A stretch of DNA of 64,000 nucleotides, taken from contig NC_049989.1 of assembly GCF_000003815.2 (NCBI RefSeq), positions 11,175,273 through 11,239,272 on the forward strand. The letters run 5' to 3'. The notes beneath the pieces were generated by a model, which was not told the DNA's origin, ran no database searches, and was given only the letters and a program-made list of their open reading frames with translations. How positions within the stretch are numbered: the first letter of the stretch is position 1; every line of letters starts with the position of its first letter. The stretch is from Branchiostoma floridae (Eukaryota > Chordata > Leptocardii > Amphioxiformes > Branchiostomatidae). The position numbers and the translations under genes were made by a program. Of the stretch, positions 28,975 through 59,600 are shown piece by piece.

Positions 28975-31900
28975 ATGGACGCCATGGTGGAACGTATACT
29001 ACAAGCTTGGGCTGCCAACACCACAACTGTCCTCCCCTCTCCCAACCCACTGGATGCAGTAGCCATGAACGATTCCACAGAGATAGAAGCTGCCGTAGAC
29101 TCGTTCCTCGAGGACCCCACCAATACCACATTCTCTGTTGGAAACGACACCGGGATGGGGTTCTTCTACCAGCCTGAAGTTGACATCGCCATCCCCATCG
29201 TCTATTCCGTGGTGTGCATCCTGGGGCTGATCGGGAACTCGCTCGTCATCTCAGTCATACTGCGGTTTGAGAAGATGAAGACAATCGCCAACATCTACAT
29301 CCTTAACCTGGCCATCGGTAAAATTCCTTCCGTTAACTTTATGCCATGCATACATTAGGATGTGATTGTTCATGTCGCCTCGGTTTACTGGTTGTCCACT
29401 GGTTGTCGTTACTCTTACTAAATGTAACACGTTTTGTTTTGTTGTTCATGTATGGTGGGCCCCCTTGGAAATCAACTCTCAGTATGTTTAAGGAGCTACC
29501 CACTTGTTTTGAGATTAATTAATAGATATATTATTGTTGTAAGCTCTCTTTAAGCTGTCGTAAGAAGAAGTAAAAATGGCCATATCTACTAGCGATATCG
29601 GAGAGGCGGAAAGGCTTCAACACCTCTCTGTTATAAGTGACCACTTTGTATGAAACTTTGTGTCAATTTTGTAAAACCTTGTAACGACTAACATAGTCAT
29701 GTAGATTTTGAACATCTAGAATTGGCGTAAATCCTTAACAACCTCCTGTAGATCATGATGATATTTATGCCATAGAAGACTTTACAACTTTATAAAGAAG
29801 TTAAACATCGCACTATGATAACCACCAACACAGATGAGCGTCCGTTATAAATTTATAAAGCATCATCACTAAGATATATATTTTTCAGTGATTAAGTGTT
29901 GTGATTAAGTGTATATGTTAACTTAAAAGTTCATCTGTGTTGGTAGAAGTCACTTCCTGCAACCTATGATCCACTGCTCAATTAGTCACGTGTTCTATCT
30001 GCATAACGTGACGTCACGACAGCAGTGGATTGTTCATTTCTTGACAAAGACTGGTGCTGTTCAGTCGAAAATTTTGGTCCAATTTTTGTGTTGGAAATTA
30101 CAGTCCAACTATTTCGAGTGTATATGTTTTGTTCTTTCACAGCTGATGAGCTCTTCATGCTGTCCCTGCCGTTCTTCGTGGTGTCCATCCTGCTGGAGGA
30201 CTGGCCGTTTGGTGACGTCATGTGCAGGGTGGTACTGACTGTGGACGCCATGAACATGTTTACCAGCTGCTGCTGTATAACGGTAGGACAGTTTTGCGAC
30301 GCCTCATGGGATATCCTAGCGGTATATTAGATTCTGTTTGAAACATGGAAATTTATCTGATATTTTTGTTCACTCTACCATTAACTCCGACTTCTTAAAC
30401 ATCATAAAAGTTTATGCTCTAAACTTCATCTCATTTAAGGCTCTTGAATTATTAATTGTTTTATGACTAATCTAAGTTGTCACCACACTTCTTCAATTGT
30501 TTTCTTTCCAATACATTTTTCAATAGAATCGGACGGAGGGTGCTACTTTGTCGGTAGTTAGCATATCAAAAATATAGCCAGGGCTTCATTTTAAACGAAG
30601 TGTCTTAAAACACATTTAAACATTTCTGAAATGTGTCTTAGTTTTTCATACGAATTTTCATTTCCAAAAGAAGCAACCACATTTCAACTGATATAGTAGG
30701 CATGTAAAGTTGTCGGATGACAGGATCTATTTTCCACTGATGTATCTGCTACTGTTACCGAAAACGTGCCGCGTATGACGCTTTGATGTCCTTTTCCAGC
30801 TTTGTTGCTTTTAAGCTTCCGTTCCCAAATGATTAGCCCCACACTGATGTCACTAGAAGATCAGGAAACGCGTGCACGCCTCTGTTTTAAGCCGCCAAAA
30901 AGGTCGCATCTAAAATCGTCCAAAATGTCAGAAGCAGCTCAGTATATATCCCACTGGTACATACATCCCAACTTGGATTCATACAGTGTGAGAGAATTTT
31001 AAAGTTGAATGCAGAAGTTGTTTTCGGTTACTTTTGGATGAACTCCGTTTAGTCTGTTGAGATTGCACGGTTGCGCAAACTGCTTTGGTGTAAATCTAAC
31101 TTAATCAAAAGCTAAATTGCATCTCATGTGTTATTAATACGAATGTAATACGAAAACAAATTCGTAGCTCACTGCGCAACTAAGAGCAGGAATAATACAT
31201 GCAATTTTAGAATTCTGATTTTCTGAAAACTATGGCAAATCGACTCATTATTGCTTATCGTAAAAATTATATTCAAGAAAGTCAAACATACGATTCTTTG
31301 CTCATATTGCAATTTAGAATTTTCAAAAGTACGTATCTACCAAAGGGTGTTTACTTGGGACATTCTCAGACTACTACAAAATCAAAGTGTGAATGACGGA
31401 TTCTCCCACAGCTATCTGGTTCCCATGATTGCTGCCAGCTGTTCGTGGTTCATCCTTTACCGTCGTTATGGAGTGTTTTCTACCTTATTATAGTATTCCC
31501 CCAAATCTCTCATCTCTTAGTTTCTAAGAGGGCTTCAGAATACTTTTCCCAGCTTGGAAACTTGCAGTTAGACTTTCATAATATCGACCAGAAGGCGTTG
31601 GCATTTCGACAAGACCTTGCATGACACTTTATACGACTTAAGATTCAAAACAGGCACTTTCTACGCTTTTACAACACATCATTCATCATTTTTATCGTTA
31701 CGTGTGCATTTTGAAACGACCCCGAACACTTTCGAGGGAAAATATTCTTCCCATGGAAATGTCCTCTATGCTCCACAAATGTCATACAGACAGAATGCTT
31801 TATGTACACAGGTAAGTGCATATTTTACTGAAAATGGTGCAACATTTTACCTGAATAGTAGTTTTGTACGGTATTCTGTTCACGTACCTGGCCTATCAAA

Positions 31901-34900
31901 ATGATATCTTGACTACGATATCGAAAACAGTGATCTGTAACACTCCCAAATTATTTTGGCATAAGTATTACGAAACGAACCAAACGCTTGCAATTTTACA
32001 ATTGAAACAAATGTACTTTGGGGGAACTCTGAATATGTAAACAAATAAGCAAGCGAGCATTTATACAATCGCAGGCTTAACCCTCATCCGACCGTATGGG
32101 GTCATTTTTGACCCCAGGCGTATATTTTAATCTGCCATAGCAACATTTTTCATCAGAGAAAAAATTCCTTCCATGAATTTGTTTGTATACATGTCTTACA
32201 ACATCTACCAATTTTTCGCCGAGTTTTGCCCATTATTGTATAAGCTAAACTTGAAAGTTTGTGTCTTGTTCGGTGGGGTCAAAAATGACCCCAGCCAATT
32301 ATGAATCATTAATTACATAAATATCAAGTTATTTCAATAAAATAACAGGCATTCCTCATTATTGCTATTGCAGCAACAGGTTATAGTTGCTTAGATGAGT
32401 AAACACCGAATATTTTGAAAGAAATTTAGTATTTTAGTGTAAAACACAGTTTTTCGACATTCTGCATAAATTATGATAATACACACTAATTACCTATGCT
32501 AATGAATGTGAAAATGTTTCTAATTAATCAAAAAACAATATATGGACAGAATGTGCAGAAGGAACCTACAAGAAAGATCTTTGCGGGAAAATAGACAAGA
32601 GTTATTGAATGTATGTGTTTAGATGGCGGAATATGGTGCATAATTAAGTAATAAATTCGTTACTTTTCACAAATATTGTATTTTTTCTTGTTAAATAACA
32701 TTATTATGCTATCAGCATTATTGAATCATCACAATCATTGTTTAGAAATTGAAAAAACAAAACATTGTTTAAGTAAGTTTAGTATGGTAGATTTTCAGAG
32801 CAAATGTGGGTTTTCCTCATTTTCTGCATAAATTATGATAATGATCAATAACTACTGGCACCAAAACTTGTCAAAATATTTTTCATAGGTTACTGAAACA
32901 GTAGATACATAGAAATGACAAAATAAGCCAGCAGAAATATGTCTATGAGCAAAACAAAATGGGGTCAAAAATGACCCCATACGGTCAGATTCGTCGTAAA
33001 AATGTAACGGTCGGATGAGGGTTAACAAAAGACGTCGTTAGGATAAGGAATCATTATGATTAATCACGTCAGTAACACGCAGTTCGAAAATTCCGATAGG
33101 AAAGTGCCCGAGAGCTATATGAGGCATTTGCTATTGGAAGATAAACTCTTTTAGTACTTAAGATTTATGCCATAATGGCTTCTTTTGGGAGGCACGTTTT
33201 AGGCTGAAGGTGCGAGGGTCAATATAAATCCCCATCTAATGACCATGGTGAGTTTATTGCAGTCACCCTCTTATTTCGGCGTTCTGAAGTTTTCTAAGTG
33301 ACTGTTGAGTGGTGCATAACTTTTAGAAGCATAATGCACGCCCCGCTTTGGGAACGGTATTTTTGGCTTAATTAAGAAAACCCTTATTGATATTAATATG
33401 AGCATGTTTACAAGTAACATTTGTTCGGAGGTCAACCTCATAATTAAAGTGTTAACGTTGTGCTGTCAAACTTTGAACAGTTAATCCCACTCCAATGTTG
33501 CAGTACTACCACCTAATTGCATTTGCCCAGGACATTTCATCATTTGGAAGACAGTAGATACTCAATAATCGTAAATAGTTGGACAAAATAGCCGATACCT
33601 TAAACAGTAAACAGAGCAACTGTGCAGCGACCAATATTAAATTCCATAATTGGAGTATATTGTAAGATGTAAAAACCTCATTTGAACGATCCGAAACTCA
33701 CGAAGCGTAACAAATCGTTCTTAATCTATCATTAAATCCGATAAAGGATCTGTGCAAACTTTGCTCGCTCAGAGGTCGCTGTGCGGTCACAGCCCCTAGC
33801 GGAGTCTCCTATCATTTCTGCTAAGTACCCACCGCTGGGTTCTCAAAATAATTGACGTTGACCTTGTGATGCTCTTCGATTCGAAAGGCAATCAATGAGA
33901 GGTCAAGTACCCAGTGCACCGTGGAATAAACCGGACGTGATTATCCTTCCCCTCAGCACATTAGTTGGTCCAATACACAAATCCCTATCCAAAGTGTTTT
34001 TACGCAAAGGCCCAGCCACAAATGCGGAATTTGTAAAGCTCACATTTTTAAAGCGATTCATTGACCCTGAAAGGGTTTAGAAAATCGCAGTATGTATGTC
34101 CATCGGGAAATATGAAAACCAAAATGCTATTATCAACATTGCTGCATGCGATTTCTCAGTAAAACTTTTTTTGGTTTGAATGAGATCATACATGAAGGGA
34201 CTCACAGCGAGTTACATGTCACTGAACACCAGCAATGACTACACGACTAAACAAAAAAGTTTTTCGAGACGAAAGACACATACATTAGGCATACGTAGCA
34301 GATCCCGGATGGGGGTTACAAATAATGTATATACTAAGTTCTTGACAGTGGCCTTTGAAGCAAATGTAACGTAACTATGCGCTAGATTAAGGAAGTCTCA
34401 AAGACGTTGCAGTCTCTTTAAGAACGCAGGGATGAGTTTATAAAAAAACACGGACGTCATACGTCAAGGGCATTAGAAGAAGATTGCAGCAGACAGGCTT
34501 CCCAATTGCACGTGAACACACGGCGACAGTTTAAAAGGAAAAAAAATAATACATATTCGGTCTTTTTTCAGTTTAGGGTGGATACATTAGTTGATCTGGT
34601 AATTGTTAAGGCTCATGAGGGGATGATATGGTGAATCCTGAAGGTTATGTTTCAAGGAGAATCAGATATAGCCGTAATCCCAAGGTTGACTGGCATATTG
34701 CGCCTGATTGATCAAAGGAGTTCTCACGTCACTGATCAATCAACCAATCGTGACCTGAATAACAAGAGTCGAAAGAGTTATGATAATGACTGCAATGCCG
34801 CCTACCATCAACTTTATCATTTTTAAAATCATTACTATGGTACATTGTTTGGTTCATCATCGTCGGTTGGCTATGGAACATCTATGTTGTAATGATCATG

Positions 34901-37900
34901 ACTCGTATATTGAGAGGCATCTGAGTGCAGAACAGTTTCAAACCATCATCTTCATCGTTTTTAGAATCATTAGTCTGGTACTCATTAACTATACTCATTG
35001 ACATTGGTTGGTTCATCATCCTTGATTGGTTATGGGTCATCAATGTCTCAATGACGCGTATATGAAGAGTATCTTGTAGTATAACAGTTTGATACCACTA
35101 TATTCATCGTTTCAAAAGCATTATTCATAACTCATCGACTGTACTCATTGACATTGGTTGGTTCATCATCCTTGATTGGTTATGGGACATCAATGTCTCA
35201 ATGACGCGTACATGAAGAGCATCTTGTAGTATGCTAGTTTGATACCATTATCTTCATCGTTTTCAAAAGCATTATTCTAACACTCATAAACTACTCATTG
35301 ACATTGGTTGGTTCATCATCCGTGATGGGTTATGGGTCATCAATGCATCAATGAAGCGTATATGAAGTGCATTTGGGCGCATAGCAGTTTGATACCATTA
35401 TCTTAATCGTTTTCAAAAGCATTATTCTAACACTCATCAACTGTACTCTTTGATATTGGTTGGTTCATCATCCTTGGTTGCTTATGGATCATTAATGCCT
35501 CAATGACGCGCATTTCGGAGCAGAACAGTTTGATATCATTATCTCCATCATTTAGAATCATTATTCTTGTATTCATCAACCGTACTCATTGACATTGTCT
35601 AGCTCATCAATAGGGATGGTTATATACCTCGATACTGCAGTGACGGGCATATGCAGAGAACCTGGGAGCATAAAAGTTTAATACCACTATCTTCATCATC
35701 TTTACAATCAGTATTCTTGTACTCATCAACCGTACTCATTGACATTGCCTGGTTCATCATAATGTGCCATCAATGCTGCAGTGACGTTTATATGAAGAGG
35801 CACCCGGATGAGAAACAGGTTGAGGACATCCTTCGTCTGTCAACCATTAAACATTAACCATAGGTTTGTTATGGGCGTAAGTTTTCAGTCACGCTTATAA
35901 TAGCTTAGGCAAGAGCTGGAAATGGCACAGGCCGCCATTCGAATCCAATGTCACCCATATATTACTTGACTTACTTATATATCATCATCATCGGTCGGCT
36001 GCAACGCAGGCGACTGTAAGTTTCTTCCATGCCCTTCTGTCGGCAGTTAGATGGCGTATCTGCTTTGCGGTATACATAGGACACATATTGATAGACAATA
36101 AGATCAAGAGATGGTCTTATTAGTCGGGGTGATCTGCAAGCTCCCCCAGCTCAGCATAACCCAAATACATGCTATAAGATGGGATTATCCTTTCTTAAGT
36201 ACGAGATATATCATAAGCTTTCTAGAGAGAGAGCAATAGAAAGCCTGTCTTTAATAAGTGCTAGCCCGTATAGGCCAACAGGTCTTAGCAGATTTGGAGA
36301 GAGTGTTGTTTCCATCAAATGACTGTCTGTTCCCTACCACTTCTATTTTAACGACTAGCCTAACTCTAGGGGCAGATAGGTACTAGTAAATGTTTTCAGA
36401 CCCTTATATCCGCCAACTTCGAATTCGTACAGCAAGCTAACATACGTCCGCGAACCTCACGGTATTAAGTACTTTCTAAAAAAAAGTGAACGACTGTCAT
36501 TTTCAGACATCTACTCATAGCTTGTTTCTGGTTATCATACCCGTCCCACTCATTTGTTAGATATGTATGAATGCGTATGAAAATAAATCCGTACATACCA
36601 AACTTTGATGTAGCATGTTGTCCTTCATCATCAATTATGTAAGATGATGATACTCCTCTCTAAAACTCCCCACAAAGCTTAAAAGCCATCTATGTTCGGT
36701 TGTGCCCAAGGGTCAATGTAAATTATTTTCAAATCTTATGTTATTACATTCCACAGGGAACAAAGCAAAGTATCTGTAGCATCTGACATCTAAATGGATC
36801 GGTAGTAAATCCCTTCAATTCGTCATTCAGGAGTTTGTATCTAGAATGTGTGATCATAAACTGGAACGTGCTGTTTATCACGCCTCTTCCAGACAAATAC
36901 GCCCATAGGTGCCCTCATAACTCGTTCCAGACATTGAGCAGTCCGACATCCTGATACGGATCGTAGCAGTGGCACGCACACGCTTAACAATCAACATTGA
37001 TAATGACAAAGAAGAAGATGACATATCAAACTTTAAAAGGTTGCTAAAATTTTTTAGGCGTGTTTACGTTACGTGCATATCATTCATGTTCACCTTCACA
37101 GAATTTAGATGTTAAAGATTTCCAACGTTTTATTAGTAAATGAGAAGAAATTCGACGCCCTAAAGATGCAAATGTGCTGATTCGACTTTTGAACATAGGA
37201 TTATGACAAGATGGTACGTACCACTATAAGGGCACATAGATTAGCTTTCCAGTGATACGTAGTTCTAAGTAACTTACCTAGTAATGATGGAGACATGGTC
37301 AATTTTAAGTTTTGGGATTCGAATTTTTTGTGTGTATATAAACGCCGCGATGCTTTACTCTCGAGCTCAAAGCAGAGCTCTTTCACAAGGCCTGTTGCTG
37401 AAATTACGATTCTATTTTCTGCCTTCTCTAATCTCCTCCCTTTTTAGGAAAGCCAGTGCGAATTTCGTTTGCTTAAATCTTAAACAACACACCCTCCCTA
37501 AAGGCATTTCAATCTCGTAGACTTGCATTTTGTACACAGGGTTTTTAGAAGCCAGCGGGAATCCTTCCGTGTGCTTCCTTTTCCCTGCTGGCTTATCCTC
37601 GTGAAGCGATTGATGAAAAAGCCAATCTTTGTGGGGATCTATCAATTCACAACAAAGTACCATGCGTCGTCCAAACTCTCAAAGCGTAACTTATCTTAGT
37701 AACATGTAATTGCCGTTGCATTTGTGGGATTCTCTTTTCTACACACGCACAAGTACTTCGGGTGAGATGTACGTCCGTGGTTTGAATTTGGAGGACTTTA
37801 AAATTGATTTGGGAGGAGCAGTTTACGCCAAATATCCGACCGTGGAGAGCTGCTGTGGTCTAATGGGGTCGCTTTAGGATTTCCAATAACACAGGGTGAT

Positions 37901-40900
37901 GGCGTTTTGCCAGGAAGGAGTGGTTGTGCTTGAATGAAGCAGGATCTATTGCAAAAATTGTCCGGTTCTGAAATTGTAGTTTGGTTGGTTCAATAGCCGG
38001 CGAACCTTGCAGGCCGAATGAAGGTTCGGAAACGGCTCCAGATGTCTCAATGAGGGGTGGCTGCGGTGCGATAGATGTCGGTTAGCTGAGGAATGAGTCC
38101 ACTCTTCTATCTATAGCGAAACTGATTGTGGACGAGAGGGTCGAGAGTTCGGGTCGTCGTCTGTTATACGACTTGGGAAATGCTCATGTCCTTAGATCGG
38201 GACATTAAGCAGTGCATAAAAACAGTGTTTTTGTCCATCACTAGTTTTGACATTAATTCATATATCCAAACCAAAAATAAAGATCTGAAAAGTCCCGAAT
38301 GTCTTCAAAGCATGCTGTACAAGAAAGATTAAGTTAGACTATATCTGTGTAGACTGCTGGCGACATGGTAGGTAAGTTAAGATTCCGACGCAGTCTGAAA
38401 TACAAACTCGGGAAAAATAAGTGGACAAAATTGGCTCTCTTATACAAGCGTATTTATAGACAGGTACGTAATAACTCCTAGGGCCGTTAACCAGCACATA
38501 ATGACATGATGCGGCGTTGTATTCCCTCCTGTAATGTAAACTTCATTGTATATTCCCAATGTTGTATCCAATTTGGTTCCCATGATCTCCCTTAAATGAA
38601 GTACCGAGTAGTTACATGGGGCTTATTTGTCCCCGTAGGTAGCAGGGTGACTTCGAAGGTCAACACAATCAGTTAATGGACGTTACGGGAGGTGGGTACT
38701 CTTTCAGCGTAACAAGGCTCAAATGGTACATTCGACACAGTCTGGGAGACGAAATGATTAATACAGTGGGATTACTACTCTCTCTGAGCTCTTTGAATGT
38801 AATTTTCACTCAGATTAATGTCATGAGAATCTCCGCTGTTGGTGCAAAGCCCTTCTCTGCCCTTTTGTGTAGCTTTCTATGTAATCAACTTGTTTAGCGT
38901 TTGAAATGAGATTGTTACAGTTGTGCGATTTAAAGCCGGCGGGTCATGTAAAGGTTAAAGGTAATGTCCGTAGGACCGACGTTCGCTGGCTTATGGAGGT
39001 ACTCTGATTTAAACCATCCAGACATTCCGGCGGCAGAACAGAAACATTAAGTTCTCTGTGGATCATTTTATCAAGTTGTACAGCCGGCGAGAAATGTTAT
39101 ACTTCATCCGAAATGAAGTGCACGGCAAATCTTCACCAGCGGTGAAGGATTAAGTGAGAACGTTACCACCCAGAGGGCTATTTTCTTCGCATGAACACTA
39201 AATGGGATCTTGCAAAGTGTACCTGTGGGCATTTCATAGACTATGGATAAAACTTCATTCCACCGTTGTAAACTTTGGGCGCTGTAGAGGCAGTGGGTTG
39301 TGGCTAGACCACGGTATTGGAAGGCGTTGCCTTTTAACTCTCCAACGGAAGTCAGCTACCCATTTTTACACCTGGGTGAAGTGAAGTATAGTGATTTAAG
39401 TGCATTCACAAGAACACAATGTCAAGCCTTGTTGCCTGGTATCAAGGCACTGACTTTTCGGCCTTGTGCCCGCTAGCAGTATCCATTGAACACCATTAAA
39501 GAATGTGTATCCCTTACGAGTGGGTAGATTTGTATTACCTCATTTCAACAAGGACATCAGGTATAGCTATAGACTGATTCATCTTACCCACGCTAGAAGA
39601 CGCAAAGGTCAAAACAAATCAGAACGTACAAACTAACATTGAAGTAGCAACGTCTAATGGTATCAACTGAGCCTGATGCTCAATGACAAGGCATGAACAA
39701 GCATTGATTTGTGGTACCAAATAGTTTGAACACGAGTAACTACAGTTCAGATGTCTTTATATATTCGTCTGGGAAGATCGTTAGATTTCCTTGTCTATTG
39801 GGCTGTTATTAATGGATGGGTTTCACGGTTTTATCGATGTGGTTAAACCGGACGGCCGAGTGAAACGACGTGAATGTGATATTTCCAAGCCCTTTATTAC
39901 TTTCGGGTGGAATGACCGAGCTTAACCGGACAGATCGTAATCTACCGAAGAAGAGTTGCGAATCTCTCAAAGGTAAAGGGCGTTCAATTAGGGTGCAGCA
40001 ACCCTCAACCAACTCTAGGGGGAGTGTAAACCCATGATTGCTTAGCCCTTTATCTGGAATTAAAGTGTAAATTTGACAAAGGTTCAATCCCCTGTAGAGA
40101 ATTAAAAAAAGCCGCCGACTTGTTAGCGTTGCCACCTCTGACGTCCGACTCATCAAGTAGAAAGCTGTCTGTCTGTAAGAATCAATTAAAGTTTCTTAAC
40201 ATTCCATCAGTCTAATGATTGTAGACCCCCAGGAGGTAGAACACTGCAAGTTTGATGTAGGCAATATTCATGGTTTAAAGGTTTGGGTGATTGTCACAGA
40301 ACTAATTTCTGGAAAAGAAAATACATGACTGTGTTCAATATTGTATTTTTAAGCGTCACATATAGCCAAGGCTAGGAAGGTATATCTCCTTTCTGTTGGC
40401 AAGGAACACCATTTGCGTTTAACATTTCGATCGAACGCAACTTGCCAACACTGGAACTTTTGACATTTCATCATAGTTACGGTTTTCTGCAGGAAGGATG
40501 ACCCATGGTATCAGACCTTGACATGTCACCTTACAGAAGCATTGCCTGTTATCTTTATACGCCATGGGATGGGCCGATGGTATATAAAATCTGGCACCTC
40601 TCTCAGCGTGTGGACTAAGTGTCCTCTGATGTAATGTAGACTGTGACCTTGTCTAATATTCCACAGTATCATACGGTGTGTCATGTTTGTGTCTCATTTG
40701 TATTTGATACAGGCTATCTGATTGTGGTACATTCTATAACTGTAGACCATTATCTTATAAATTCCTATGTTACCCATGAAATTGCCACATCTCCTGTTCA
40801 GTACATGCTATGACTGAAGACAACTAACTTACCAGATAGTATGTTACTCAGTCCATGCCATTGCCATGGCTCTACATACAGGCTATGAGTGTAGACCATC

Positions 40901-43900
40901 ATCTGATGTTACCCATGCCATTGCCATGTCTCTTGTTGTACAGCCTATGAGGGTAGACCATCATCTGATGTTACCCATGCCATTGCCATGTCTCTTGTTG
41001 TACAGCCTATGAGTGTAGACCATTATCTGATGTTACCCATGCCATTGCCATGTCTCTTGTTGTACAGCCTATGAGTGTAGACCATCATCTGATGTTACCC
41101 ATGCCATTGCCATGTCTCTACAGGCTATGAGTGTAGACCGTTACCTGGCCATCGTGCACCCCATGAAGTCCCTCCGATGGCGGACGCCGTGCCGTGCCAA
41201 GCTCACCTGCCTCTGCATCTGGCTGGCCTCCTGTGCCATCATCTGCCCCGTGCCGTACTTTGCTGGAGTGGAGGCATTCGTAGGTAAGCATTCCAAGGTC
41301 TCATTTTGACGTTTAAAAAATAATGAATGGCAACCATTATATTGTTGTTGCTTTGTGTCCCAACGTTAACGGTCTATATAAGTGCCCCCTTGAACTGTAT
41401 CAGATTAGCTATACACTGAAAATAATATGCACGCAGATTAGTCATACCAGAATACACACAGAAAGGAGGTTGAACCTCCTTGGGTACAGGTTGAAACATC
41501 AGCGTTACGTTAAGAAGAAAAATATGAGATAACTATATATTGGGGGGGGGGGGCTTTGGTGAACAAGAGCATGCTGGCACGTGACATTGTAGACGAATAT
41601 GGTAGAGAAGAGGAAAACGTTGAAAAGGTGAACTTTTATATACGTGTACCTTCTTTCTCTTTGTTGTCCATCGTTGTTGATGAAGACTTCTACGTGCCTC
41701 TTTCCTCCAATTTATTGTGCACTCGCGTATGAAGCAGGAGTCCAGTCCCGAATCTACAGCTGAACTGGAACTGGCGCTGTCCCAGGTCACTTTCCAAGTA
41801 ACCACACACGTATTCTGTTGTTGCAGATACTACGGGATGCATGCTGCAATGGCCCGGTGACAGTTGGGCCCGAGCCTGGATTGTCTACTGCATCATCCTG
41901 GGTTTCCTCCTGCCGGTGGTGGTCATCACCATCTGCTCCGTGAAGATCGCGAAGGCTCTGGGCCGACAGGCCAACCAGCTCATCTTCGAGGGAGACGTGA
42001 AGTTATCCGCCTCGAGAAGACAACAGGAAGCAAGGAGAAAGCACAAGGTGCAACGGGTCTCACTAAATACAGAAAACAACCGAAAACGACCGAAAACAAC
42101 AATTATTGGGAGATAGCATTCATCTGATATTGGCTTGGATAAGTTCTCGGTATGGGTTATTGACTAGAACTAAGATACATCGAATACTAAAGCTCAACCC
42201 TAGTAAAATATTACACAGTAAGAGAAACCTTAGTACGTATATCACCCAAGCACTTTACTCTAGATCTATAGACACCATGGATAACAAAATATTTCCCCGG
42301 CAGGAAGAAGGCTATGGGTCTACTTTTACCTTTAATAATATTGTCTGGATATAGCCATGTTAAGCATGTATTGTCTTGGATCACAAAGTTATTTATTCAC
42401 AGTCATGATGTAACATGGCAGCCGACGTTTCGTTGAACGTGTGCCACCTTCTTCAGGGCAGTATCAACGACTACGTCAATTTGCATTGCAGCTAGATGTC
42501 GCTGATAACACTGTGGTTCCAAACGCGCAGTATTGTCTAACACATAGATTACTTGTCAAGTAAGAGTATCAACGAGATAATGGTACGTCACTAACCTGAT
42601 GGAATTTATGACGCATTCATTATCCTACAGGTGACGAAGATGATCCTGGCGGTGATCGTGACGTTTGTTGTCTGCTGGTTGCCATTCTACGTCGGACAAA
42701 TCGTCAACCTTGTCGCCAAGCTGCCTCCGACCACACTACTCATGGGTGAGGGAAGGGTCCAGTTTTAAAACATGGCAAATAACAAATATCAGAAAGAATG
42801 TAGATTTTACCGAAATATTTTTTTAAATTGATTTGTTGACACATTTACACATTCGCTCAGTCATATAGCTTAACAATGCGCAGATGTACGACTTGAACTA
42901 TATATTGATGGAATGGTAGGTTGCTGTTTAATAGTACATTTTTGTACAGCGTTTGATATCTATAGCCTTCTTGCAAGCAGTGGTAAAAATCCATATACTT
43001 TGTATTAACTCGATCGTGCCTGCTTATGGCATGCATGAAGGTACTGTAATCAGCCACATACCGTTACTCTGTAGTTTTAGCAGCCGAGTTCAAATGGATG
43101 GACAGAAAGACGACCTGTTTTGCACAGCACAGTAGGAAAAGAGCTCACCTGATAAGCTACCTAGCTCAAAATGCAATTTTGGGTTCAAATGATTTCTTCG
43201 ACAGTGTGTTATAACGAACATTTCGTTTTTAACCTCAGGAGTCTACAACTTCATTCTCTGCTTGAGCTACGTCAACAGCTGCGTGAACCCCTTCATCTAC
43301 TTCCTGGTCAGCGACAGTTTCCGGAAGAATGTCAAGTACATCTGCAGGTACGTATGGCAGGGATAAACGAGGCACCTTCTAATGTTAGGCCCCGTTTTCA
43401 CAAGATGAAGAAAAAATCATTGGAAGACCTTGCTGATCATCGATTGTTACATTAACAATCAAAACAAGAGCTGTTCACCACTCAAAAATCACGACCACAG
43501 CATGTCCAGAACTCGAGATATCAAACCCGGAAGTTCCGCACCAGTACCATAACGAGCCACTAGGAAGCCCAAAGTCTAATTCTTCCCAGGTCTCATCCAT
43601 ACCTACCCACATACGAAACATCGATACAATCCATGCAGGCGTTCATGAGTTAGGGTGGTCTTAAACACATACACACACGCGCACACACACTCATATGGAC
43701 CTTTACATGACACCTTTGTGCCAAGTTTAACTATTTCAAATGAAAAAAAGAACCAGTCGCATCAGAATTATTCATTCTGATGGAATTATAATAGTAAATG
43801 TTACACTTGCATCTTCAAATATGAGAATCAGTAAAGTTTTAAAGGAACCATATTTAAACACTACTGAACGTTCAATGGTTTTCTTTGCATTATCTTCATT

Positions 43901-44214: not shown

Positions 44215-47045
44215 ACTCTTGAAAGCAGTCAATAACATACCGTATAAGGCTTCGGTCACAATTTCACCAGTGACCGCAGTCTGTATAACACAAACTCCGC
44301 TGTCCAGGGCTGTAACTGGCCCCTCCCCGGGGCCGGCGGATGTTTGGCGGGCTGCTATAAGCGAGATTTAATCAGGCTAAAATTTGTCCTGATGGACTGG
44401 CGGGGTACCTTTAGGTGATGTCACGCGGGTAGCTCACGGCGTCTATTTGTTGCCGGTTCACGGGCTGATTTTAATTCCGAGTTTACAAAGAAATCCGGGG
44501 CCCGGCCTGACCCAAATATAGCCACAGGGTGTCAAACGACGACACATCCGAGAGTGCTGTCTCCCCTTTGACAGCCTGTAGGATAATTCGTGCGTGATAA
44601 ATTCCATCAGGTTAGTGACGTACCATTATCTCGTTAATACTCTTACTTGACCAGCCCGTGAACTGCCCGACAGGGCCCCCTTTTTCCAATTGCGACCTAA
44701 GCGTAAAGGGGAAATATTTCCCGGGCGTTCAACTTCGTGGTAGAAAGAAAATGGAGTGATTTTGCAGTGGAAACAATGTTGTAGCCGAGCAGAAGATAGA
44801 AAGAAAATGTTCACTGAAGTTTTACGTTTGCGATAGAGAGAACCATGAACATAAAACCACCGCAAACATTTTCCGCTTTACAGTGATAAGCACTTAAGTA
44901 CTGATAACCTATTAGAAGCTATCGTATTTTTTTAGTGGATTTTGTCCAGTCGAGAACGTCATTCACGCAATACTATATAGATGAATATATCCTATACTGT
45001 CACGTTCACGTGAATTTATATGTGTTTAAGATGTAGATGTCACAGATAAAAATGATTTCATCTATCAACTACACGGACAAAATGTTGTCAGTTCCGTAGT
45101 TAGTCAACTGTCGTAACAATTGAAGTAACTTTAAACTTGCAGACGAGTTTAGGACAATTATGGTAGTAACCAATGTCACCGAGAATACCTACAGCCTGAA
45201 GCAACTACAATAACTTATGGTGTTGTTAAGACCTTTTATGGTGTTTTTAAGACCTTTGGGGCCTTGCCTTATTTGCATTTGTCTAAAATAATCGGAACAA
45301 AATTACATTGTGATGATGTGAAGTTTCTTATAGTCACAAGAAACAAGAATGTTTATAACAACTGGAGAAAAGATGTTTTCCAGGTGTATATCTATTAGAC
45401 AGACATATCATAGCATAAATGTTGTGTAAACCTAGTAGTTAAGTGTCTGTTGTGAGGTTTATAAGTACAGCAGTACCATGATATAACATGATATCTCCGG
45501 TCAAAAGTCATACTTCTGGTGTGGAGACAAAGTTATTTTTTTCATTGGGTAGCGCTCGCGGGTGAAGCTAGGGTTAAGGTTAAGGTTACATGTACATTAG
45601 GGTTATCCAATATACCCCTGACTTCTACTACCATTACCATTGCCCACTCAGTGTGTCTCCACTCCAGTATACTGGAAAACCCCAAGTAGTGCTGCAGCAA
45701 ATATTTGACAGGGTGTAAAATTTGGCTTGACACTCATAGGAGTTCCAATAATAACACATTGAAAAATGGTTACCAAAATTTTGGAATACCTATGCCAGCT
45801 ATTGAAGAATTAGCATCAAAACACTAGACGCTACTACATTGACTTCAGAAATGTAATTTGTGGAAAATTTAACTAAATTGGCGATATGTAACCCTGGTTA
45901 AATAAATATAAACAATAAACAAACCTTGTAATACTTGTACCAATACAAAGATGTGTATAATATGTACTGTTGCCTTTATCTAAATTATGCCTAGTAAATA
46001 AAAGAGTATTGTAAAATAGATTCAGTATAGAAATGAGTGTATATAATAAACAGGAAATGTATACATGTATACTCCATGGTTATATAATGTGCTGGTCACA
46101 GAATAGAGTTAAACAAACTAGAACAAAGGAAACTATGTCTATGTCCATGTCCATGTCCATGTCCATGTCCATGTAAGTATGGCTACTCTTGTCACATGTA
46201 ATATCATTATAAGAGACTGTTATTTTGGAAAATATACACAGATTGATATCAGCTGCGTACATCTTGTATATGACTTTTGTCCAGTATTTTCTACCCGTGA
46301 TACATGTACATGTACAATGTAGTTGTAACAACTAGGTATTTCAACAAGGTTCCTGGTACTTTGCAGTAAACATGATTGATGTTTAGTTCACTGAAATCAA
46401 CTTCAAGTAGTGAAAGATTTTTGGAAACCTCACTTAAGTTAGTGTAGGAAATAAAAACATTCTTGAACTGTATTCTGTAGAAGCCACCGGATACAACCTT
46501 TGCTTGATTTTGTGATATTTTTCACAGTACAACTTCCTTCTGTATGGTGCAATTTTCCTGTGAACACTGATTCGTCATGTTCTCCAACTGCAAGAAAAAC
46601 ACAAAAATGTAATTTATTTAATCTATTGTTCACATGTCATTCAAATAATGAAATCAAACTAATATAGACAACTATGAAGATGAAAATATGGAAAGTGAAA
46701 GACAAAAGGTTTAGTGGTATGTGATCTGCAAAAATTTACTGATCCTAGCCTTCTTTTTGGGGGTGGGGTGTTGGTGCACTGACATAAAATTCAAATTAAT
46801 CATCCGAGTAAAGTGTTGTGGAATTGTTCCTCATTTTCAGCAATAGAAAATTGTGTTTGTAAAAATTGTGTATATCTGAAATATAAAGTTGAAAATAGCA
46901 GCATCTTGATACAGTTCAGTTTTATGTTCTTAAACAGAACAAACAGTATCTGTTTGATTCCTTTGGCTGAAATCTACAAAAAATTGAGAGAATCCCCGCC
47001 AATACAAAACTTTTTCAAGACCTAACCGGTACCACTACTGCACCC
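44215..47045. other. Intergenic region downstream of the receptor
   Basis: Holds the receptor's presumed 3' UTR (length unknown), the inverted 61 bp copy at 44592-44652, a MITE relic (TTTTACGTTTGCG ... CCACCGCAAACATTTTCC) at about 44800-44884, a GGTTAAATAAATA retroelement tail near 45895, and many AATAAA-type sequences that do not single out a poly(A) site. Confidence 0.45.
46134..46176. repeat. Hexanucleotide microsatellite (CATGTC)n
   Basis: About six copies of CATGTC in a row, producing an Asp-Met alternation in the minus-strand frame. Not coding. Confidence 0.9.
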
Positions 47046-50220: not shown

Positions 50221-50510
50221 CCTGGATGTTTGTGTTCTTGTGTGTTTGTCTGGATGTTTGTATTCTTGTGTGTTTGTCTGTATGTTTGTGTTTTTGTGTG
50301 TTTGTCTGGATGTTTGTGTTCTTGTGTGTTTGTCTGGATGTTTGTGTTCGTGTGTGTTTGTCTGGATGTTTGTGTTCTTGTGTGTTTGTCTGGATGTTTG
50401 TGTTCTTGTGTGTTTGTCTGGATGTTTGTGTTCTTGTGTGTTTGTCTGGATGTTTGGCAAAAAATGTGTTCTTGTGTGTTTGTCTGGATGTTTGTGTTCT
50501 TGCATGTGTG
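50221..50510. repeat. 28 bp minisatellite, about 10 copies
   Basis: The unit TGGATGTTTGTGTTCTTGTG + TGTTTGTC repeats with few changes, with one interruption near 50456-50466. Since 28 is not a multiple of 3 and no frame meets a stop, all frames stay open; this yields long artefact frames on both strands (up to 189 codons). It begins about 150 bp past the NLE1 stop, so may lie in its 3' UTR. Confidence 0.95.
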
Positions 50511-50660: not shown

Positions 50661-53600
50661 CTACATCTTGAGAACCCTGTCCCTGCCTCCACTGGCTACC
50701 CGCTGTCCATCAGGACTCCAGTCTACTGCAAATACCTGCAGAATTCAGACATCAACAAGACAAAAATTTAATATTTAGAGATCCTAGAATTTTTTGTTGA
50801 TTTTTGAAAGGCTGAGTTTCGGATTTGCCTTGGACATGTTTCTGCATTGTGCTGTAACAGTTCTGAGAGACAGCTTGCAATTGGACTCATAGTATTTTTC
50901 ACTGACTTGCAAATCAACCTTTAAGTTAGCCTATCCCCACACTCAGGTGCACAATGTACATGCATTTTGCATTTTCATGTGCAAAGAAGACAGAACATAT
51001 TTCTTACGTGGAGACTATATCTACGTTTGTACTTACTAGTATAATGGTATAATAGAATATTCAACAAATCCAAAATAACAAGAAATGGCAGGGAAAACTT
51101 ATGTACCTAAAATCTCACAGCAACAACTGTTTCCTACTTATTCTCTAGTAAAGATATTGGTATTTCTAGAAGACTAAAGAAAACAAAATGTGGTCTGAAA
51201 ACTGACCTCGTCAGCGTGTCCAGGCAAGTCGACGGTCAGTTTACGAGTTCTCACGTCCCAAACCTTCAACGTGCTGTCTGAGCTGCCACTGACCAGCAGT
51301 CTGCTGTCAGCTGACCACGCAACCTGTCCATCAATCAATCAATCTATCAGTCAATTACTCAATAATAATGGAACGCGTGGCGTAATCGGCAGCACGTTTG
51401 ACTCAGGTCCAGAAGGTCCTGAGTTCGAACCCTGCCGTGTCACCGATCTTGTACCCTTGGGAAAGGCACTTTTCACAACTTTCCTCACTTCAATCAAGTA
51501 AAAAATGAGTAATATAGGCTACAAAGGTCTTCAGCAAGTTGAAGTTGGTAGCCTCAAAACGAAATAAATAAATAACTAAATTATAATTGAATCAGTTGCT
51601 GGGTGAATGGGAAACATCTAGTTGGAGATTCCGTTATCAAATTTAAAGTTACATTATACCTATAATTATTATAGATTATGACAAATAAAACTTTTTTTTA
51701 AATTAGAGAGAAAGATGTCTTTCACTCAATCAACATATGATATCATACTATACACATAAAGATTTAACATTAACTCTATTAGGAAATTCTGTGTCCAATA
51801 GTGATTATAAATCATCAACTTCATCACAACATTTCAGAGTATAAGAACTATTACATCTGAAGACACATATATCATCATACTTAATTGTTATATAATGAGA
51901 ATTGGTTAAACTTTCAGTTTTCACATGTTACCAAACAAATACATCTGAGGATGTGGCCATAGCACGTGTACACAGAATGTACCATTAACAGAAGGGGTTT
52001 CTAAAACTAATACTGTCTTTTTTTCCACCTCTTGCTATAACACATTGTACAAAATGTGATATCACTGAGAGAATATTAAAAATAATCCTACTCTTTCTAT
52101 ATTATATAGCTTATTAGGTGTCATCATCACTGAATGTTATCAGATTTTAATAACTGGGCCTAATAAAAATTTAGGCTATTGGATCTTACGTAAGCCTTCC
52201 TATTGAGTATATTACATAAGCTACAAGGAGAACTAGAAGTGAGTGCATGTGTGATTGACATTGAACGAAGATGGCAGCAGTGATACCAGGCTAGGATTTT
52301 ATTAAAGGGAGTCCAAATTTAAATTTCTTGGTGAGTTGCAGTAAGTGACTATTGTAGGGGGGTCCGGGGGCATCCACCTTCCATGGTGCAGAGTTTTTGA
52401 GAACAAAGTTGAGAAGTCAAAAAGGTGCCTTCTAAAGTATCCTGAGGAGCAAAAATACTGTAAAAGAGGTCACAGTAGAAGACTGAGACCACAAATGACC
52501 TAGTCATATCCCTGGTCAATCAGAATTTCATGCTTGTCAGAGGATTTGCTCCCCAGTGTAACTGCTCTAGTGGGTCCAATTAGTACTTGTTATTCTAAGA
52601 AACGCGCCTCCAGATGACGCCATGACGCATGCCCCAGGCAAAAAGCCTGATTGATATAAAGCATTAGTGTGTTTATGATTCCAACAAAAGAGATTGTGAG
52701 ATAACCCCAACACTTAATACTTTGGGGGCATGTAATTTCAGCAAGGGCCACACTAACTTGAATTTCTTAATACTAAGAAAATAAAGATCTGCTGGCCTAC
52801 TGTGTGCACTGAGAAAGAAGGTACCAAAGGATATCCTGCTCAGACTGTACAAAACCATCACCAGACCTGGTCTGGAGTACGCCGACGTCGTTTGGGCTGG
52901 ACTCACCAAGCACGACGAAACAAAACTGGAATCAATTCAATACCAAACTGCCAGACTGATCAGCGGACAACATGGACTCCCGTACCCGTCATACCAATCT
53001 CTGTACACCCAGCTATCCCTTCCATCACTGCAGTTCCGACGACAATTCCACACCGCTGTCACCCTGTACAAGCTCCTCAACGGTCACTGCCCTCCACACC
53101 TTCAAACCCTGATACCCAGAACCCGTGCGTCTGCTACTGAGTCACGTTACTCCCTCAGGAACAGCGACCACCTGACATCTGAACTCACTAAGTCCACCAG
53201 AGGCCAGAGAACATTCATCTACAGAGCAACAGCACTCTGGAACACTCTCCCTACTGCTACTCGCACAGCCACCTCCACTGCTTCTTTCAAAAGAAAACTG
53301 TGGGAATGTCTAGGCAACCCTTACGCATGGTAAATTAGTCATACACGTGTATATACAGACCCTGACCTCTCATTGCAAATATTGTTGTCGATGATATGAT
53401 GTTATATACTCCATTTTAGATGATATGTAAGTTATCCTACACCATGTACATACAAATGTTCTTTTTTTAAAATTTGTATTGTTTATGTGTTTGTCAGCAG
53501 GGCTAGCCCTTTGTAATAGCCATAGGCTAGTTGGGCAGCCCTGGCTGTGTGTTCGGTGCAGCCAAACCAATAAATAAAATAAATAAATAAGAAAATAAGA

Positions 53601-56600
53601 ATAAACCATAAATTAAAAATAACAACATGAAAGTGAAGCTAGTGCTTTGGTACAGTTTCAGACAGTAAAAATCTTGTCTCTGTTTTGAAAGTTTTTGAAA
53701 GCTGTCGGAGAATGAAATGATTTGCTCAGGGTCTGTAAAGAGGAGTTCAACTTGGTAATCTCTAGGTAGATTTACCAGTGACATAAGATAGTATCAACGC
53801 TGGCTAAAGAGTATAGCTGGCCAAAAGTAGCCAAACACACTCCTAGGCTATTTTTGCTCATTTGTAACCTGTCACTCCTCTGGCAGGTTTTGTTACTATC
53901 TTATGCTACCGTAGGATCTACTTAGAGAATGGGGTTGGCACTTTCAAATTGATGTAAATGATAATACAAAGACCCTTTATAGTAACGGGGGCCGCCCTAA
54001 GACGGTCCCCGTCGTAAGACGGAACGGATTTTTTGCTGATCTTATTATCCATAAGTATACCGTATTTGTTGCCACTGACTATGCTGATTACGAAGGTAAA
54101 TAAACCAAGTCCATGCACACAGCTTTAATTTGCATTCCAAGTATACTTTAACATATTTACTTCATTTTTTTTTAAAACAGAATTCTAACAGTAATGTTGA
54201 CAGTGCTAAATCACTGCGGTCACCGGCCTCTGCGTATTGGCGGCTCGTGTTGCTAACTATACGAACTCTTTCAAGCAGTCACACAACTGCCATGATACAC
54301 ATAAATAAAGCTCCATAAAACACTATGAATATGGGTCTTCAAATGTCTGTTGAGTAGAAAAGCAACCAAAAGGAAGCGACATAAACATTGCCACCATTGT
54401 ACTCCCAAGGGAGTGTGGCCGTGAAGGTGACACCAGAGTACGCTCCAAAGATTTATTTGACTGTAACAAATGATTCGTGCTGTCTATGAAAATAAGACTT
54501 GATAGAGAGATGTAGATAATATTTTCATATAATCAGACCGAGTTTTGTTGATGTTAGCGGTGTCTTTTTTTCGTAATGTTTTTTTTAATCGGGCATTCAC
54601 AATCAGTGCATTCAACCCATTGCCCGTAAAAACATGAGCTGGATTGTTCTAGGTACAGCCTTCCTCATGTGAGACAAGAAGTACAAACAGTCACGATTTT
54701 ACTGTCAAAAGAAAGCTAAAATATCATATTATTAATTTTTTTCTGTGTACTTAAATTTACCACTTACTTCTGAAGAGAGCAAAATGTAAAAAAAAGCGTA
54801 CCGAGTTAGGCACACTGTCCAGCGTAGCACAAAATTGGAAGGTTACATACACGAAATTGTCTCACAGTGTTTGCCGCTTGTAACATGCAGCGCGAAAGGT
54901 TCATGAACCACATGAATGCATTTCTTATTCAAGTATGTTGTTCAAATCTATGTGTAAAAAATTCAGTCATCAAAATTTGACCACTCTCAGGCAACTAGCG
55001 ATGGAGCGCCATGAGTTTGAGCGCAAGAAAAAGCGTACCGTGTTGGGGCACCTCCCGTTACACACCAGTGATGTAATCCTACAAAATGTAATAACTGGGA
55101 TTTAAACGAAGGATTTTGAGATCAGCCTTAAGCCCCTTTTGGGCACGTAACTCGAGCAAGTAGGCAAAGAATGAAACATGCGCCTCAGGCATTGACGTAA
55201 ACAATGATGACACACCTGATAAACAGCGTTGACGTGCCCACGCAGTGACGTTAGGTACCTGCAACAGAGATAACAACATCCCATCCATTCACACTATCAA
55301 TATATGGGTTTAAAGGGCTTGTCTGAAGGTAGAGAAGACTAGACGCACAACATTTGCAAGAGAATACAGCATATTTTAACCACCTCTCAACCTACATGTA
55401 TGCAAAAATGTTCTGTTCCAAAAGTGAATGTCGAAAAAGTTAACCCCCTTGCGAGAATGGACTATTCGTGAGACACTTGAAAGCAACGGATATAGGTTAC
55501 CCGACAGATAAAGGTGAACTAGCGTTACCGAAAAGAGGACATTGAGACGTTGAATCTTTCTTCTGTACTCACTTCCCAGTTTTCCCGTCCCACAGCTTGA
55601 CGGACTTGTCGAAGGATGCGCTGGCGATGAGCCGTGCATCTGGCGAGAAGCACACCTCATTAATGAGCGCCATGTGGCCTGTCATACGGGCTAACGACTT
55701 CTTATCTAACGACGGTTGCCATAGAAACAGGGTGAAGTCATCCGAGCCTGACACCAGCCTTTCTGTACCTGTACCCTGTGGGAGCACAAAAGGGTCAGAG
55801 TTCAAATCTAGCCATTGCTGTTTTAGCTTGAATTATGTCTCATTTGTAACAGTGTTTATCTGGGTAAAAAAGAAAAAAATTCAGGGGTCTTAGTGGCAAG
55901 TGTGCAGATGTTGACACACTGGCAACACCAAATCCGTGGATGTTTTTGGCACCTTTAGACAGACTAGCCGTGAGGCTCGGTGGGCATCACTCCACCATCA
56001 TGGGGGTAGGGGAATGGTGAGTATCAAACGTAGGACCTACTGATTCTGATTCCAATGCTTTAGCCGTTGCGCCACACAGACACCCCTTTTCTTTTTTGAT
56101 ATCTGTGCTTAAGTTCTTAACTCCCTGACTGTTATGATACGCTTGTTGATACATGAATTTTGTGTTTACAAAAGAAAACAGTGCAAACCTTTGCGGTGTT
56201 GTATCTCTCCAAAGCCTTCCTCTTTATTTCTTCAGCTGTAAAATAATTTTCAAAACTTAATGTTTCAGACACAAGCACATGATGTAAGCCTTTAAAAATA
56301 TAACATATGTGCATATATGTTAACATATGGACCAACTACTGTAAATGCAGAAACTTTCGCGGTGGTTTAATGTTCGCGGTTTTTGCAGTGGCTGCTTCAC
56401 TGCGAACTTTTTTTATTGACAGTAAGAATCTACAAGGCATGGTGCTACCGCAAAATCAAAACCACTGCGAAAAGTCCTTTTCCCTGCTACGGCAAAAGTA
56501 AATCCCTACGAACTTAAATGCATTTGCAGTATTGCCTGACTGAGAGCTGTACATGTACGTTATCATGGTATCATGGAACGGAAAAGGATGTGGTTTTGTT

Positions 56601-59600
56601 TTTGTAATTATGTAAATATTGTATTGTATGTATTGTTATTTGTTTATGTATCCAGGGCCTCCATGAAAAACAGTGTCAGCCACTGATCGGAGCATACCCT
56701 GGTTAAAGAAAACAGAAATAAATAAATAAATAAATATCATCTATTAGGCCATGATGACTATGGTGACAACCAATCATGCACTCTTATTGGACAGTTGATA
56801 AAGAATCCGGAGGTTTTATTGGTAGTTCTGTGGGAATGGTTATGGCTCTAAAGATGCAAGTTCTCAGGGTTGAGGCCCAATGAGCCTCAAGCCAAATCAG
56901 CTGAACAGTGGGAGATAGTGTAACACAGACTAAATCTTCTGTATCATATATCTCCATAGCTACCATAACTGTGTTCACAGTTCTAAAGATGTTTGATTTA
57001 AAGCATCACATATTTCAAATCAAAAGTACCAAGAGTTTCTTGTACATTTCCTGCTTACCTGCTTCAGGTGTGTCTTTGTGTATGATGGAAGCCCTCGCAG
57101 GGTCGTACGCTCCCGTACGTATGGCGTAGTCTGTACTGAGTGCCATGGTGTTCACCCAGTGGCCATGACCCTGAAGTGTTCTACACAACACTCCCTGGGG
57201 AATAAAAAAAGTCCAGGTTACTGACAACAGTCCCTGTACTATTGACAAAAGCTGTAACTCTTATAGTGTAAATATGTACTTGTCTTGTAATGGTCTGTTT
57301 ATTGTCTACTACTCCCACCACTATAATTTCTCCTCATCATCATCATCACCATTACCAACATCATCTTCATCCTCATCCTCCCCATCCTCCTCAACATCAA
57401 CTACTTCATCTTCATCCTCCATCTCATCACATCATAATCATCATCATCAACATCATTATCATATTTCTCTTCATCATGATTAACATCATCTTACATAGTA
57501 TTACATAGTATAACATGTACATACATACATACATAAACATACTGTTTGAGTTGGAACAGAAAGTTTGACCTCCAAAACACACTATCTACCCCTGTATACT
57601 AGACTAAGTAGACATCATATTGAACACCTTTTCTAACCAATTACATTAGTCAAGGATCCATTGCGACCCGTGAAGGCGTCTCAAAGATGTCCACGTTCAA
57701 GAAAAGAAGAAGAAAAAAAAAAACATTAGTCAAACTCCTTCCTACATGTGTTACAAAAAAAGTTGGTTCCCTACAGTTTTGAATGTAATGGTTTACTTTC
57801 CAATATCATAAATTTCCTGAATATTAAAGCTTGTACTGATTCCGTACTCACATCGTCCGGTCTCCAGACTTTGATGGTTCTGTCCTGTGAGGCTGTGTAG
57901 ATTAGTCCCTCTCCTCCCCAGGGCACACATGTCACACTCTGGAGGTGGCGGCTCAGGCTGAGTAACGTCCTCCCCAACACTACATCCCATATTCTCACTG
58001 TGCCATCCGGTATGTTAAGTATAGATTATTTTNNNNNNNNNNNNNNNNNNNNNNNNNNNNNNNNNNNNNNNNNNNNNNNNNNNNNNNNNNNNNNNNNNNN
58101 NNNNNNNNNNNNNNNNNNNNNNNNNNNNNNNNACAAACAATGTAAAGCAAGAATCTGCCCAACACAATATCACATATTCCCATGTGCCATCAATGTGTAC
58201 TGATAATCCCAATACTTATCCCATAACATAGACTTTAAAACAGACCTTTGATGCACTTGCAAGACGTCTGCACTCAGGGTTACTGAAACATCAGAACAGA
58301 GGGGAGATTAAGTTTCTACAGGCATGCAGATACCTTCATTCCGAAGATAGTATTCAGGTAAGTTCCGTTAATTATACAGAGGAAAATTATATACGAAAAT
58401 TTTCATTACCTACTGCACTCCCCATAATTGAACAGTCAAATATAGCAAGCTTTCCTGCAAAGTCAAGTAGCCATTGCAGTTGGTCATTCATCTTGACAGA
58501 GTTTCTTTGTGTGCTGGACCTAAACTCTAACTTTGTGATCAATTCGTAAGAAAGCGCTTTCATCAAACACGGCATGTGTGTGACATGGACCGGAATAAAA
58601 CTATTAAAAGTTTCATCTTCAGAGAGTCTATTATAGAGTAGATTAGTTTCCAGCATTGCTTTACAAGTTGCCATGTATTATATCATATCTATTACAATAA
58701 TTTTAAGCAATCAGTCCTGTATGAGTACATCCCTTACCACAACTTGTAACACTAGTATGTGTGTACCTTTATCCTTGGGGTAACCTATATTAATTGTTTT
58801 TAGAAATGGGATAATTGTAATGGCAAGCCGACGGATGGTGGCTTCAAACCTGTTTTGAAACAAATATTGCAATTTGAAACCACTAACCATTGACATCCCT
58901 AAGTAAATACCTTGTTTTTAAAAATAACAGATATAGGTTACCCTGTGGATAAAGGTGAACTATCGTTACTGGTAGATGCATAACTTACAATGTAGAATCG
59001 TTATGTAGCTTTACAAATTGTAGTTACCTATGTAATGGTTCCCATGAGAGGAAGGTTATCCACTGTTTGTGTCCTGTCAACATTTTCCCCTGTTGTTTCC
59101 CTGTGGCTGGATCCCATATACAGATCTGTAAGATGGATCATGTCACTTGTCAAACAATCTTCAAAAAGTCAACAAAATCTATCATATCTTAATATCAATT
59201 ATGAAGTTACTAGTAAGTTCTACTATATAGAAATGAAAACTACGCGTGTATGTTAAAAAGCTGTTACAGCACACAAAACAGCAACTTCTAAATTTCCATT
59301 CTTTCCCGAGTCATTCACATATGTTTGACATATTGCAGTACCTAACCATGTCACAGAGGGGCGCTGCTGCACTGTAAAGAATATGACCCCGTACTTCACC
59401 TGTGCATTTTTACATCCTGATGCCAGCTTTCTCCCATCGGGTGCCCAGGCTAATGCTAGAATCCAGTGTGAGTGGCCTGGAAAAAGACACATCTTGATTC
59501 TTACCATTGGAAATAATTATTAAATACAACAGCATATTAAACAATTCGGAAGGCACCAATTTTTCCAAGTGCGCTACAGCACCTTGTAATCACAATAAGA

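Follow-up and report, generated by a model that had tools for sequence, protein, structure and literature searches.

An array of tandem repeats stands directly before exon 3 of a somatostatin-receptor-like gene of Branchiostoma floridae, in a 64,000-nucleotide stretch of DNA (contig NC_049989.1, forward strand, positions 11,175,273 to 11,239,272; hereafter the window, numbered from its first letter). Each of its four units carries a copy of the intron–exon boundary, and four decoy acceptors precede the true one. The array is a mirage, a new example in a structure class already described in lancelets. We are fairly confident that it has grown by minisatellite turnover with a near-neutral effect, and that the real acceptor is still used. 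The array is probably tolerated rather than used, and a splicing function is unlikely on present evidence.

To judge from its sequence, the gene encodes a rhodopsin-type (seven-transmembrane, 7TM) G-protein-coupled receptor (GPCR). The best match of the spliced protein is somatostatin receptor type 2 (SSTR2; E 7.7e-83), the best opioid receptor scoring 4.2e-65, and Pfam 7tm_1 was found in all three exon stretches submitted, from a gene of which six exons were read. Genome searches covered one assembly of 513,431,437 bases in 431 contigs.

Anatomy of the array

Tandem Repeats Finder places the array at 40853-41119 with a period of 62, 4.3 copies, 94% matches and a score of 471. The decoy acceptors, each reading ACAG, lie at 40882, 40944, 41006 and 41068, upstream of the true acceptor at 41124. 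In each unit, 31–37 bases from the 3' end of intron 2 are combined with 25 bases from the start of exon 3. The following features of the array region were placed:

40702..40731, plus strand: possible oldest remnant, ACAG/GCTAT...CTGAT with an internal deletion; placed by eye on an alignment, without statistical support
40722..40756, plus strand: decayed copy, 16.5 bits; ACAT replaces ACAG
40767..40829, plus strand: decayed copy, 25.6 bits; ACAT replaces ACAG, but another AG shortly before it makes 40802 an acceptor-like place
40882..40943, plus strand: unit 1, follows decoy acceptor 40882, AG/G; exon copy 40882-40906
40944..41005, plus strand: unit 2, follows decoy acceptor 40944, AG/C
41006..41067, plus strand: unit 3, follows decoy acceptor 41006, AG/C
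41068..41123, plus strand: unit 4, follows decoy acceptor 41068, AG/C; 56 bp, runs to the true acceptor
41089..41093, plus strand: CTGAT, a branch-point-like motif, its A 32 nt before exon 3

A first-pass annotation of this DNA had described four units, each with a tract, ACAG and a copy of the exon 3 start, and every unit does carry all three. The exon copies are 25 nt long, and 21, 19, 21 and 20 of the 25 bases are identical to exon 3 in units 1–4; past +25 the alignment shows no resemblance of the units to exon 3. Several details need adjustment. The proposed unit length of 60-62 bp fits three of the acceptor intervals (62, 62 and 62 bp), but the last is 56 bp. The five copied codons (GCT/CCT ATG AGT GTA GAC) are right overall, except that AGT reads AGG in unit 2, and the replacement of the DRY codons by GAC CAT CAT applies to three of the four units, unit 3 having CAT TAT. 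Beyond +16 the units differ from exon 3 (at +17, +19, +21 and +25) by transitions only. Such transitions in the DRY region are as expected for a copy free of coding constraint, and loss of DRY needs no design.

The surroundings of the three inner acceptors differ pairwise by only 1-2 per 72 bases. These three share AG/C and an inserted TTGTTG-like stretch, whereas decoy 1 and exon 3 have AG/G in common and lack the stretch. Judged by these letters, the inner units are homogenised and the edge units excluded.

Older copies had been suspected as far as about 40700. We built a profile from the four units and compared it with 30 random 64-kb sequences of the intron's dinucleotide make-up. The profile finds five strong places of 54-77 bits, including the true boundary (the units themselves by construction), as compared to a control maximum of 10.7 bits over 158 hits in the 30 sequences. 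Both decayed copies listed above, which reach to about 40722, exceed this maximum, but the piece at 40702-40731 is recognised by eye only. When the unit is aligned with 40600-40722 and gaps are allowed, the alignment takes a different path there, and its score of 10.8 is not above controls (null 95% 13.3). AG is kept in all four strong decoys, and at the homologous place both supported decayed copies read ACAT.

A dispersed element as the source of the array was rejected: a 501-b query matches one place in the genome only, in a search that skips very common words. An RNA structure hiding the decoys was also rejected, as the array folds no better than shuffled sequences (z +1.2). Rfam and tRNA searches found nothing.

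Acceptor strength and the outcome of decoy use

Acceptors were scored with a matrix of 39 sites: 11 from two genes of the window, 6 from the related receptors L033-L036 and 22 from chaperonin (TCP1) genes. The chaperonin sample used 54 of 60 matches from nine chosen multi-exon genes, and 22 of the 54 exon matches yielded an unambiguous acceptor. Genuine acceptors were scored leave-one-out and the sites of the ladder with the full matrix. When every AG within intron 2 and at its end is counted (609 in all), the true site (4.98 bits) ranks 4, the inner decoys (4.51 bits) rank 7-9, the remnant site 40713 (4.29) ranks 10 and decoy 1 (0.70) ranks 43. The inner decoys stand close to the median of the genuine acceptors, 20 of the 39 scoring lower. 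The bootstrap 95% interval of the true site minus an inner decoy is -3.74 to 5.05. With other matrices the order changes: the inner decoys are above the true site with 11 acceptors (2.33 vs -1.46) and with 17 (5.10 vs 2.76), and below it with a generic matrix (4.10 vs 5.77). Since the matrices give either order, we take the inner decoys and the true acceptor not to differ in score.

The first-pass annotation saw five near-identical acceptors one after another, and that they form a single class holds: the true site and the inner decoys score alike with 39 acceptors, and CTGAT recurs at three of the four decoys. Specifically, the same CTGAT is found 38 nt upstream of decoys 40944, 41006 and 41068, and the AG-free stretch is 49 nt before each inner decoy and 43 nt before the true site. 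The annotation had also asked for a score of each acceptor; decoys far weaker than the true site, together with RNA-seq showing the 41124 acceptor alone and no variation, were to count as inert. The three inner decoys are not far weaker; the low score of decoy 1 is the exception. With a series of acceptors that look competent, three being inseparable by score from the true one, the array lends itself naturally to testing which cues other than the acceptor guide the spliceosome to its site.

Splicing to any one of the decoys would run into a TGA, at 40948, 41010, 41072 or 41128. The stop had been expected in the following unit; all four decoys do reach one, but that of the last lies within exon 3 (41128). 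The annotation predicted a truncated receptor from misuse of a decoy. By the usual rule we consider decay of the message likelier than a stable truncated receptor, because each decoy-induced stop stands 153-333 nt short of where exon 3 ends.

How could such an array arise and be tolerated? A tandem duplication would have captured the final 31-37 bases of intron 2 together with the first 25 of exon 3, and the duplicate would have been amplified upstream of exon 3 by ordinary minisatellite turnover. The inner units would then have been homogenised, while the edge units and older copies drifted, and the copied exon start, under no coding constraint, could have lost its DRY codons through transitions. 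The true acceptor may still be chosen by exon definition, as no other acceptor of the ladder is followed by the complete exon 3 with the donor GTAAGC. If a decoy is used now and then, the resulting message would carry an early stop and be degraded. The anatomy, the decay of the outer copies, the homogenisation, the acceptor class and the stops are observed; choice of the last site, message decay and a near-neutral effect are what we infer.

Some points weigh against this reading. The acceptor scores supply no reason why the last site should win. Near-neutrality is carried over from other loci. Another point concerns the gene itself: in the part of PMC3560075 drawn on here, an unambiguous SSTR member was not found for B. 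floridae, and because of this the receptor is named by best match only. Note that PMC2246102, in the section used, lists somatostatin receptors among the GPCRs of B. floridae.

Whether exon edges attract such copies can be judged from other junctions. In two genes of the window we compared 26 junctions (12 acceptors and 14 donors), and at a single one, the exon 3 acceptor, copies lying within 1.2 kb score higher than the maximum of that junction's own controls. In the chaperonin genes 108 exon edges were available; these mark the ends of profile matches, unverified as splice sites, and were compared with random positions that avoid the 1.2-kb locus ends. Local copies above the null maximum of 18 (400 controls) occur at 5/108 edges vs 223/1948 random positions (Fisher p 0.03). 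At the stricter mark of at least 25 the counts are 4/108 and 175/1948 (Fisher p 0.08). Many of the random positions probably cluster in the same few large arrays, so that they are not independent, which makes both p values too small. Two of the four convincing edge copies are on the donor side and two on the acceptor side. The fifth edge, GT-rich and in L065, was judged to be of low complexity and falls below the stricter mark. Tandem Repeats Finder places one of the 108 edges within 25 nt of an array. Mirage-like copies at chaperonin edges are located at ~7349-7520 in L060 and, in reverse-complement coordinates, at ~5990-6130 in L063 and at ~1303-1550 and 8858-9118 in L065. Local duplication is a frequent feature of the chaperonin genes, and it strikes exon edges no more often than other positions, perhaps less. 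The control speaks against boundary copies being aimed at splice sites, the edges falling below the random positions. The 4/108 gives a small first figure for the frequency of boundary copies in the genome.

An alternative that is compatible with a mirage, and that we regard as unlikely, is that the array attenuates expression according to its copy number: decoys would take part of the splicing, the resulting messages would be unproductive, and longer alleles would yield less receptor. The scores of the inner decoys, which resemble that of the true site and lie close to the genuine median, fit such a role, and so do the stops reached from all four decoys. Length-dependent splicing is moreover reported for a human repeat in ABCA7 (PMC5954066, in the portion cited). 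Against this, the published mirages are described in the cited parts of PMC3087553 and PMC3902484 as not disturbing regular splicing, and local copies are fewer at exon edges than at random positions. Both supported decayed copies have ACAT and not ACAG, although two copies permit no test and one of them retains a nearby AG. A stronger form is a little less probable still: the ladder would be a heritable, length-variable attenuator in which every added unit brings a further, equally strong acceptor whose use ends in decay, allele length would set receptor output, and mirages genome-wide would be a class of splicing quantitative traits.

The receptor gene and the history of intron 2

The exons of the receptor gene and the intron that ends in the array are as follows:

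28975..29317, plus strand: coding exon 1; start codon picked by eye
30143..30282, plus strand: coding exon 2, with Pfam 7tm_1; terminates ...FTSCCCIT, then donor GTAGGA
30283..41123, plus strand: intron 2, 10,841 bp, phase 0, between ...CCIT and AMSVDRY
41124..41283, plus strand: coding exon 3; true acceptor 41124, donor GTAAGC
41827..42047, plus strand: coding exon 4
42631..42745, plus strand: coding exon 5 (TM6)
43239..43347, plus strand: coding exon 6 (TM7)

A further C-terminal exon is likely downstream of exon 6. Intron 2 is 10,841 bp long, as compared to 493-825 bp for the remaining four introns. Its position (161) was followed in paralogs, for which the 30 best single-frame matches were taken; two are the receptor's own exons, leaving 28 loci, and the search favours intronless genes. 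Position 161 is uninterrupted in all 28 loci read. The positions of introns 1, 3, 4 and 5 are likewise uninterrupted in 28/28, 28/28, 26/26 and 25/25 of the loci covering them. Because position 161 is uninterrupted in 28/28 paralogs, intron 2 was probably gained in the receptor gene, or is a survivor among retrocopies.

It is possible, though improbable in our view, that the array is a trace of this gain, intron 2 having come from a tandem duplication across an exon, as the intron-gain model for globin mirages proposes (PMC3087553, in the part used here); this too is compatible with a mirage. The uninterrupted paralogs argue for it, and so does the crossing of position 161 by 91 of the 113 non-own matches. 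Six matches, from five loci, have an edge near 161. Three of these loci have an intron in the arginine codon of DRY instead and run through 161, and a fourth is contiguous but carries a frame break, so that four of the five are without an intron at this position. The fifth is L036; its acceptor fits the place of DRY, and the exon before that acceptor was not found. On the other side, the four other introns are also absent from the paralogs and have no junction copies nearby, and the paralog sample itself favours intronless genes. Likeness between the unit's intronic half and the last part of exon 2 is weak (shuffle p 0.01, 0.04 and 0.10 in three units). Nor is this half enriched at the paralogous place, where the fraction of coding positions that do equally well has medians of 0.31, 0.41 and 0.50. 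An origin of the unit from exon 2 is not supported beyond these weak p values. A somatostatin-receptor-like paralog, L032 (G000:C13:10291500-10294500), has a frame break at ~1461 on the minus strand, at a TM3 codon adjoining the place of intron 2; it may have become a pseudogene, or the assembly may be in error there.

An assembly artefact, with tandem copies that are collapsed or false, is very improbable: repeats are error-prone and we used a single assembly, but the units are not identical, decayed copies lie outwards and the 501-b query matches the genome at a single place.

Two other features touch the receptor gene. The 80-nt stretch 42552-42631, ending at the exon 5 acceptor, has a 93% inverted copy at 44575-44654, 1.9 kb downstream, and no additional copy among the genome matches listed. 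The first ~50 bases of intron 4 (42049-42100) belong to a dispersed repeat with dozens of genome matches, often in neighbouring pieces. Elsewhere in the window, a WD40 gene on the minus strand (51205-61300), which resembles Notchless (NLE1), has at least eight exons read by eye, one of them adjoining a 100-N gap at 58033-58132. Further tandem arrays are found at 796-1381, 3675-3911, 17956-19483, 24793-24875, 34931-35760 and 50222-50502, none of the six within 700 bases of any placed exon.

Comparison with known mirages

The human ABCA7 intron 18 variable number tandem repeat (VNTR), whose length alters splicing, resembles the receptor array in that its unit bears a splice signal and that retention of a unit causes a frameshift and an early stop. 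It differs in being far longer and in carrying a donor, not an acceptor; moreover, skipping of exon 19 varied with length, whereas unit retention did not (PMC5954066, as far as the cited portion goes). Intron gain by tandem genomic duplication, in the Rogers model (via PMC3087553) and in potato RdRp (PMC4974935), shares with our array the tandem copies with splice signals inside a gene; an origin of the receptor intron from duplication is without good support.

The closest relatives are in amphioxus itself. The relevant part of PMC3087553 describes tandem repeats spanning intron–exon boundaries in Adh3 and globins, named mirages, which vary in length between haplotypes and have homogenised centres and diverged edges. 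Data on Adh3 and reverse-transcription PCR on globins suggested there that regular splicing is undisturbed. PMC3902484, in the section cited, adds a PGBD5 mirage, cites troponin C, and suggests regular splicing from cDNA work. The genome searched here holds nine globin matches, and one, L057 (C18:7180855), has a 158-bp x 4.2 array entering an exon and copying the globin acceptor region that ends in AG followed by GTTACTCCG. In period and place this array fits the BflGb6 mirage of PMC3087553, whose 150-160 bp unit joins the 3' end of the B12.2 intron to the 5' part of exon 2. It supports both the existence of the class in this genome and a lancelet origin.

The receptor array differs from the published mirages in lying in a gene that the cited parts do not name, in having decayed copies upstream and in copying 25 nt of the exon. 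A mirage in a somatostatin-receptor-like gene has apparently not been reported before, none being found in the titles and abstracts searched, which cover the literature in part. The likeness to the Adh3, BflGb6, BflGb9 and PGBD5 mirages is otherwise close. In all of them a tandem repeat crosses an intron–exon boundary and copies the AG, and the centre is homogenised while the edges have diverged. Amphioxus mirages carry a splice signal (AG/GT) in many, not all, units, and this is also what the receptor array has. Its unit length lies within the reported range, from the 10-72 bp of Adh3 (PMC3087553, in the part cited) to the 150-160 bp of BflGb6.

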